From the NCBI GenBank assembly GCA_017647975.1, contig JAGCJL010000076.1:1-48273 (forward strand): DNA of 48,273 bases. The letters run 5' to 3'. Positions 7,075-8,679 of the stretch are shown piece after piece. The stretch is from Bacteroidaceae bacterium (lineage in GTDB: Bacteria; Bacteroidota; Bacteroidia; Bacteroidales; Bacteroidaceae). The translations under genes were made by a program, and so were the position numbers. Positions within the stretch are counted from its first letter, which is position 1. Every line of letters starts with the position of its first letter. The notes beneath the pieces were generated by a model, which was not told where the DNA came from, did not search any database, and saw nothing but the letters and a program-made list of their open reading frames with translations.

Positions 7075-8679
7075 TTAGTCTTTGCGAGCTACTACATTCT
7101 TCACAAAATCCATGACTACCGGTGATGGATGAAGAACTGTACTTGAATACTGTGGCTCATAGATAACACCTACATACCAGTCGCAAGCAGGAATCTCTAC
7201 AATATCAACAAGGCCGCTCTCAGGGTGAACACCTGTACAAGCCAAACCTGCTTTCTCCAAAGCATCACGATACTCTATATTGAGTTCGTAACGATGATAG
7301 TGACGCTCTACAACCTTGTCTGTTCCATAGATTGCATAAGCTTTGCTATCCTTTGTAATGACTGTATCGTAACCACCACGACGCATAGTACCGAAAGGAT
7401 TACCAACACTCTTGAGGTCTTCCATGATATCTACAACCTTGTGGCTTGTGTGATCATTCATCTCATAGCTGTTAGCATCGGCATAACCAAGAATGTTACG
7501 GGCTACCTCAATAGCCATTACCTGCATACCAAGACCAATACCAAGAGTTACAAGATTGTTCTCGCGACAATATTTAGCAGCAATTACCTTACCCTCAAAG
7601 CCACGTGGACCTACACCCGGACAGATAATGTAGCCATCCATACCCTTGAGCATAGAAGCGACATTCTCCTCGGTAATTTTCTCACTATTGATAAAATGAG
7701 GCTTGATTTTGCAGTCATTATATGTACCGCATTGGCACAAACTCTCATGAATACTCTTATATGCATCCTGAAGGTCATATTTACCAACAAGACCAATATT
7801 TATTATACGTTTTGCATTATTACGACGCTCAACAAATGTACGCCAAGGCTTCATCTCTGGTGTCTCGCCAATTTCCTCGCCTACAAGACCCAAGATTGCA
7901 GCATCAAGTCCCTGCTCCTGCATTTTAATGGGCACTTCATAGATAGAAGGTACGTCAAGGCTCTGAACAACACATTCAGGCTGCACATTACAGAAACTTG
8001 CAACCTTCTTGCAAAGGCCTGTGCTTAGTTTGTGTTCTGCACGAAGAACAAGACAGTCGGGCTGGATACCGAGACTCTGCAACTGTTTTACAGAATGTTG
8101 TGTAGGCTTTGTCTTCAACTCACCTGCTGCAGAGAGATAAGGAACGTATGTCAAGTGTACACACACCGCTCTACGACCAAGTTCCCATTTCAACTGACGG
8201 ATAGCCTCCAAAAATGGCAAGCCTTCAATATCACCAACAGTACCACCAATCTCAGTAATCACAAAGTCAAATTTCTCTTTTGTGCTACCACGCTTCATTT
8301 TACGTTTGATTTCGTCTGTAATATGAGGGATTACCTGTACAGTCTTACCAAGATACTCACCACGACGTTCCTTCTCAATAACCTCACTATAGATACGTCC
8401 TGTTGTGAAAGTATTCCAACGGGTTGTCTTTATATCAGTAAAACGCTCATAGTGACCAAGGTCAAGATCGGCTTCATGACCATCGATTGTTATATAGCAC
8501 TCACCATGTTCCTGGGGATTAAGAGTACCGGGAGATACATTGATATACGGGTCAAATTTCTGGATTGTAACTTTATATCCTCTTGCCTGCAACAATTTGC
8601 CAAGCGAAGCAGATATAATACCTTTGCCAAGTGAAGAAGCAACACCACCCGTAACGAAGATAAATTTTGTTTCAGCCAT
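7075..8679 (-). CDS. pyrG: CTP synthase homologue with inactive glutaminase triad
   Basis: A 534-aa protein of full CTP synthase length. CTP synthase makes CTP from UTP, ATP and ammonia, normally released from glutamine by a C-terminal class I glutaminase. The synthetase half (1-270) keeps the P loop with Lys19 (SSLGKG), Asp73 in [10 protein letters not shown], Glu143 in [11 protein letters not shown] and KTKPTQHSV. It also has changes at usually fixed sites, such as NVSPGTL for NVDPGTM and TIDGHEAD for TEDGAETD. In the glutaminase half the nucleophile motif GICLGMQ reads GIGLGMQ (Gly382). The FHPE motif reads YEPQ (Glu508, Gln510). All three catalytic positions are therefore lost in an intact frame. 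Nearby conserved motifs are also altered (GTMRRGG for GTMRLGA, RHYHRYE for RHRHRYE). I infer an ammonia-dependent synthase or a regulatory paralogue. The neighbour yidC, usual in Bacteroides as I recall, is absent. Confidence 0.88.

Follow-up and report, generated by a model that had tools for sequence, protein, structure and literature searches.

CTP synthases of a ruminant-gut Bacteroidaceae lineage have a replaced glutaminase site and probably run on free ammonia

A 48,273-nucleotide stretch of Bacteroidaceae bacterium DNA (contig JAGCJL010000076.1, assembly GCA_017647975.1; hereafter the window) carries on its minus strand a homologue of pyrG (7075..8679, 534 codons plus stop) whose product is a CTP synthase with a replaced glutaminase site. 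Because the catalytic triad is lost in every copy of the clade to which this protein belongs and the synthetase half is intact, the enzyme most likely runs on free ammonia: judged from its residues, it would be a functional CTP synthase that converts UTP, ATP and free ammonia to CTP, with a glutamine amidotransferase (GAT) half that would be structural, would not split glutamine and would have a dismantled GTP site.

Translation of 7075-8679 gave a 534-residue frame without an internal stop, confirming that the gene is intact, as originally predicted. The protein scored above the cut-offs for both PF06418 (CTP_synth_N; E = 7.4e-120) and PF00117 (GATase), is 46% identical to Escherichia coli PyrG and passed the NCBIfam model TIGR00337, 'glutamine hydrolyzing CTP synthase' (score 657, cut-off 463). 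In a comparison with at most 1000 PDB chains, one AlphaFold2 model (mean predicted local distance difference test (pLDDT) score 86.1) matched CTP synthases over its full length and predicts that the two-domain and GATase folds are retained; pocket and tunnel geometry is argued below from residues and not from model coordinates. The synthetase (ammonia ligase) half spans residues 1-265 (7885..8679) and keeps K19, K41, D73, E143, E152, K189 and K225 as well as the tunnel residues P55 and H58. The GAT half spans residues 291-534 (7078..7809). There, alignment to E. coli PyrG bore out the predicted replacement of all three catalytic residues: Gly382 (codon GGT, 7534..7536) occupies the position of the nucleophile C379, with GIGLGMQ in place of GICLGMQ; Glu508 (GAG, 7156..7158) that of the catalytic H515, with YEPQ in place of [FY]HPE; and Gln510 (CAG, 7150..7152) that of the catalytic E517. 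Further replacements surround this site. In the lid L11 region (residues 354-363, 7591..7620), Val356 replaces the E. coli lid residue Phe353; in the wing/GTP region FGTMRR (residues 429-434, 7378..7395), Phe429 and Arg434 replace G436 and L441; and Tyr461 (7297..7299) replaces R468.

A PF06418 search of 44 genomes of the same genus returned 37 matches in 32 genomes, all of which we inspected: 23 copies with Gly, Glu and Gln at the triad positions (G/E/Q; 22 genomes), nine with Cys, His and Glu (C/H/E; nine genomes), four canonical second copies and one partial match in G026. One G/E/Q copy (L115, in G067) leaves its contig after residue 527, beyond the site. On a tree of 91 PyrG rows (diagnostic columns masked, LG+G4, quick search, no bootstrap), the G/E/Q copies formed one clade (Shimodaira–Hasegawa-like approximate likelihood ratio test (SH-aLRT) 100), which settles positively whether the set is a clade. 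The nine C/H/E copies of the same genus form its sister group (99); they have the triad intact but carry Q383H, E403D and Q513E (E. coli numbers). The canonical second copies lie apart from both groups. The presence of G/E/Q in 23 of 23 clade copies, and in half of the genomes (22 of 44), makes a sequencing or binning accident unlikely. Named contigs that correspond to these genomes were assembled from gut samples of buffalo, sheep, goat, yak and deer, that is, from several animals and samples, and are largely assemblies identical to the searched genomes, so they provide no independent confirmation.

All 23 G/E/Q copies share C379G, H515E, E517Q, Q513I, F353V, G436F, L441R and R468Y (E. coli numbers, here and below). 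Thus the Cys-His-Glu triad of class I glutamine amidotransferases is absent from every copy, and the residues predicted to contact GTP at the lid (Phe353), at Arg468 and in the wing are likewise replaced throughout. Phe353 (Drosophila Phe373) and Arg468 have been placed at the glutamine entrance and GTP site in structures and models (PMC8325340, PMC9138612, PMC11211670), the lid Phe353 adjoining both the glutamine site and an ammonia entrance (PMC8325340, PMC11211670) and R468 being modelled close to the purine of GTP (PMC9138612); Drosophila Phe373 would correspond to E. coli Phe353, judging by the difference in numbering of the catalytic Cys (399 versus 379). Other parts of the site persist: the GTP-site equivalents R470, E68 and L109 and the equivalents of Q383 and E403 are retained in the clade. 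L435 was left out of the count of GTP residues as it varies among relatives.

The synthetase half presents the opposite picture. K18, K40, D72, Q114, E140, E149, K187 and K223, among others, are retained in 23 of 23 copies, as are the gate residues P54 and H57; the catalytic residues of the synthetase are among those listed. Lys19, Asp73 and Glu143 of the window protein, which the original prediction had reported as kept, correspond to K18, D72 and E140, so that the P-loop Lys and the Mg-binding Asp and Glu are present in every copy. We then counted positions that are at least 95% identical across a reference set of 55 other full-length PyrG proteins (including that of E. coli, the four operon copies described below and two Cys-to-Gly singletons). 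Of these positions, 124 lie in the synthetase half, of which the G/E/Q clade has lost two (D48S and V62I), and 71 in the GAT half, of which it has lost 15 (Fisher test, 6e-6), a result that largely overturns the earlier claim that several synthetase motifs had changed. The sister group has lost 0 of 124 versus 8 of 71 (2e-4). In seven controls (four groups of two to four sequences and three single sequences), losses ranged from 1 to 15 of 124-131 synthetase positions and from 0 to 19 of 71-75 GAT positions, E. coli being highest, with test values from 0.019 (E. coli) to 1.

Both halves of PyrG are clearly under purifying selection. In the G/E/Q clade (up to 231 pairs drawn from 22 complete copies), the median ratio of nonsynonymous to synonymous substitution rates (dN/dS; Nei-Gojobori) was 0.016 in the synthetase half and 0.062 in the GAT half; the sister group, which has the Cys, gave 0.018 and 0.059. 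All are rough values because median dS, at 1.2 to 1.9, is near saturation. The constraint on the GAT half indicates that it is retained for a role other than glutamine hydrolysis.

The nucleophile position was also surveyed more widely, within the Bacteroidota. Of 393 genomes of the order, seven matched a pattern with a Gly codon in place of the Cys codon, and two of the matches were PyrG (G000 and G151); a pattern with a codon not starting with T, which is blind to replacement codons that do start with T, was matched among 395 genomes of the phylum by the window's genome alone. The PyrG of G151 (L116), the one copy in a 99% complete genome of another family, reads GIGLGMQ at the elbow and retains His and Glu; Cys is retained in both close relatives of G151. 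A PyrG in G834 (RGIG4665; L058), on a 7.6-kb contig and outside the genus grouping on the tree, has GLGLGMQ and also retains His and Glu. A yidC-like gene lies 3' of both pyrG genes. These two Cys-to-Gly changes could be genuine single losses or artefacts of assembly or binning, and we do not use them as support.

How such an enzyme might obtain its ammonia can be framed by known CTP synthases, in which GTP activates the glutaminase and plugs the opening for outside ammonia. In E. coli PyrG the reaction with outside ammonia can proceed without the glutaminase: GTP is described as hindering the use of outside ammonia, the entrance for which lies beside F353 and opens into the tunnel (PMC9138612, PMC11211670), and the G352P variant is reported to have lost glutamine use and to retain nearly full ammonia use (Weng and Zalkin, cited in PMC9138612). 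We propose that the GAT half of the G/E/Q enzyme would be a structural part unable to split glutamine; that GTP, its site dismantled, would no longer act or plug the ammonia entrance; and that outside ammonia would enter and reach the synthetase site through the retained gate. We infer CTP formation with ammonia at in vivo concentrations, inactivity of GTP and a sufficient supply of ammonia in the gut.

The original prediction had offered two options, an ammonia-using enzyme and a regulatory or filament-forming paralogue of a second, normal PyrG. The first is favoured by the residue anatomy and by the distribution of PyrG copies. The window's genome encodes one PF06418 protein, and the second pyrG with GICLGMQ that had been suggested was not found there. 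Across the 22 G/E/Q genomes, which are incomplete assemblies, the PF06418 search found no canonical PyrG in 20, the window's included; 19 of the 22 have a single copy, G067 has two, both of them G/E/Q, and in G004 and G032 the second copy is canonical. The chance that a core second copy was missed through incompleteness alone in all 20 is about 2e-17. A pseudoenzyme that modulates a normal PyrG is consistent with the occurrence of both forms in G004 and G032, the only genomes in which the paralogue option could apply, and with filament formation by CTP synthases, as stated in literature abstracts. However, no active copy for it to act on was found in the other 20 genomes, the synthetase catalytic residues are retained in 23 of 23 copies, and dN/dS is lower in the synthetase half than in the GAT half. 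We therefore regard this option as improbable.

The canonical second copies (L085-L088, in G004, G013, G032 and G034) have Cys-His-Glu in four of four cases and lie 3' of carB and guaA. In three of the four loci carA precedes carB, and in G034 the contig starts inside carB; purF lies 5' of carA as a long frame in G004 and as part frames in G013 and G032. The four carA-carB-guaA-pyrG operons each have different flanking genes. We rejected contamination as an explanation of the second PyrG in G004, because there the intact operon and a separate purF-carB pair share one 87.5-kb contig (C9).

PyrG is not the only glutamine enzyme of the genus that has changed. PF00117 searches of G000 and G029 returned three proteins each: the G/E/Q PyrG, a short GuaA and, judged by eye, a fusion of a peptidase-C26-like protein and a dipeptidase; G062 has an additional HisH-like protein. 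The short GuaA (L139/L223; G000 contig C59:2153-3460) is a 435-residue GMP synthase in which the GATase part ends ahead of the nucleophile and leads into the ATPPase part, so that it lacks the glutaminase active site; it nevertheless passes under the automatic NCBIfam name 'glutamine-hydrolyzing GMP synthase'. It was found in 12 of 16 genomes of the genus searched (sequence read or aligned in seven, the other five judged by frame length and full coverage), three of which (G004, G013 and G032) also have the full operon copy. In the remaining four, no GuaA was found in G009 or G014, G034 had only the full operon copy and G022 a 91-residue piece. Five of five genomes of the sister genus have one GuaA with a full-length frame, and the short form also occurs in G834. 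Isolated ATPPase domains of the Plasmodium falciparum and E. coli GMP synthases are described as using external NH3 (PMC10526850). We also observed a 333-residue GATase-less GuaA, 76% identical to the genus form, in G829, a genome of another family (L169, C19:300775-301692), which has a full-length GuaA on the same contig.

CarA was not found in the three operon-free genomes searched with PF00117 (G000, G029 and G062), all of which have CarB; a fourth genome searched, G004, has no CarA other than the operon copy. A CarB search of ten genomes of the genus found none in G002. At nine of nine loci retrieved from the genus, carB adjoins a purF-like gene with no carA between them (gaps of 23-495 bases), as in G000 (L211, contig C12, about 29458-32679). 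In G370, of the sister genus, the order is glmS-purF-carA-carB, which suggests, without proving it, that carA was deleted from between purF and carB. The CarB of the genus is closest to that of G102 (84%), in which carB likewise stands apart from carA; no carA was found on G102 contig C10 or near its pyrG, the two places searched.

These searches also bear on whether a separate glutaminase protein docks on PyrG and supplies ammonia in trans. Archaeal two-subunit GMP synthases are described as working in this way (PMC10526850), and the constraint on the GAT half could preserve an interaction surface. Against it, the PF00117 proteins listed above for G000 (79.7% complete), G029 and G062 comprise, besides PyrG and the short GuaA, the peptidase-C26-like fusion and, in G062, the HisH-like protein; the search did not extend to PdxT-like or nitrilase-like proteins. 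We give this possibility little weight.

Taken together, the findings leave us evenly divided on a wider proposal: that a whole ruminant-gut genus has moved the final steps in the synthesis of CTP and GMP, and possibly the synthesis of carbamoyl phosphate, from glutamine to free ammonia, with glutaminase parts disabled, trimmed or lost (PyrG, GuaA and CarA), the PyrG glutamine site changed in two ways, one in each of two lineages, and the separate purF-carA-carB-guaA-pyrG operon serving some strains as a second, low-nitrogen set of intact glutamine-using enzymes. A genome-wide loss of glutamine amidotransferases was rejected, as PurL and a PurF-like protein keep their cysteines; AsnB, GltB and GlmS were not targeted.

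Several points weigh against an ammonia-fed PyrG. At the pH of the gut, little of the total ammonium exists as free NH3, and known enzymes require ammonia in large amounts. PurL keeps GICNGCQ or GVCNGCQ together with PHPE in six of six genomes (G834 included), and the PurF-like protein, which scores below the NCBIfam purF cut-off (135 versus 350), keeps in five of five genomes the HECG cysteine that we take to be catalytic; glutamine is thus still used elsewhere, and any switch would be selective. The parts of the AlphaFold2 model with the lowest confidence, residues 46-59 and 428-431 (pLDDT < 50), are the tunnel-gate and wing regions. Because the assemblies are incomplete, any single one of them may have failed to capture a second copy, and a strain-variable, poorly binned island escapes the calculation made above for a core gene and may be missed more often. 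Finally, PF06418 found no PyrG in 12 of the 44 genomes of the genus, versus 6.8 expected from incompleteness (P = 0.026).

The replacing residues could themselves form a new active site, Glu508, Gln510 and Gly382 acting on glutamine by other chemistry or on another amide donor. They are identical in 23 of 23 copies, and the Q383 and E403 equivalents are retained. Against this, no nucleophile is left at the elbow, the lid Phe, R468 and the wing residues are replaced as well, and we know of no relative with such alternative glutamine chemistry; we consider it very improbable. Equally hard to credit is that the genus is losing CTP synthase function and living on imported cytidine or CTP precursors, for which the 12 PyrG-negative genomes, among them G002 (98% complete, 7% contamination), and the partial PyrG of G026 might speak, as the synthetase half is strongly constrained wherever present and has lost next to none of its invariant positions in either group. 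In G026 (L089, contig C135:1-1081) the match ends at residue 256, where the frame stops about 300 bases before the contig end, and the sequence beyond resembles none of those compared; this is probably a chimeric contig end, the alternative being a synthetase-only gene. Within the same order, no PyrG match was obtained in G037, G048 or G251 (96-99% complete).

Directly 3' of the window's pyrG stop codon lies a hairpin resembling an intrinsic terminator, followed by a T run (7035..7070, minus strand; -19.2 kcal/mol, z = -7.2, with 0 of 200 shuffles equally stable). The neighbouring genes scanned are ordinary chromosomal genes. Elsewhere in the window, 31142-32275 encodes a protein matching an FkbO/Hyg5-like chorismatase N-terminal domain and a RidA-like (L-PSP) domain, and 46753-48174 a single protein with an APH-like kinase domain and a RapZ C-terminal domain.

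Textbooks treat both PyrG and GuaA as glutamine enzymes that carry a fused glutaminase. A natural clade in which the fold is kept and the glutaminase chemistry erased offers a test of the roles of the GAT half besides hydrolysis, and bears on the route by which outside ammonia reaches the synthetase site and on the need for GTP control once glutamine is unused. It may also link enzyme evolution to an ammonia-rich habitat. Automatic annotation can mislead here: with no glutamine hydrolysis predicted, the name 'glutamine hydrolyzing CTP synthase' would be wrong for the G/E/Q PyrG. The original prediction knew of no natural CTP synthase of this kind, and our literature search turned up nothing to the contrary: the titles and abstract openings searched, many subscription journals lying outside their scope, contained no ammonia-dependent, glutaminase-less or pseudoenzyme CTP synthase. 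In Table 1 of a survey of amidotransferases, pyrG and guaA are 100% fused to a glutaminase (800 and 730 genomes) and no carAB case lacks one; active-site residues were not scored in the passages of that survey consulted (PMC3376133).

The G/E/Q PyrG resembles canonical PyrG (E. coli, Thermus) in domain order, in its synthetase and gate residues and, by its model, in its full-length fold. It differs in lacking the Cys-His-Glu triad and in its rebuilt GTP and glutamine pocket, and we do not expect it to hydrolyse glutamine. Mammalian carbamoyl phosphate synthetase I likewise keeps a GAT domain, has lost the nucleophile and uses free ammonia, but it is another enzyme, of eukaryotic mitochondria, in which only the Cys is changed. 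The E. coli G352P variant behaves as we predict for the G/E/Q enzyme, yet it is a single engineered change, whereas here a natural clade has had its whole glutaminase site replaced (PMC9138612). Type N NadE shows that an amidotransferase family can have ammonia-using and glutamine-using versions, but it is a single-domain enzyme without a glutaminase part (PMC3376133), whereas the G/E/Q PyrG keeps the domain, catalytically empty.
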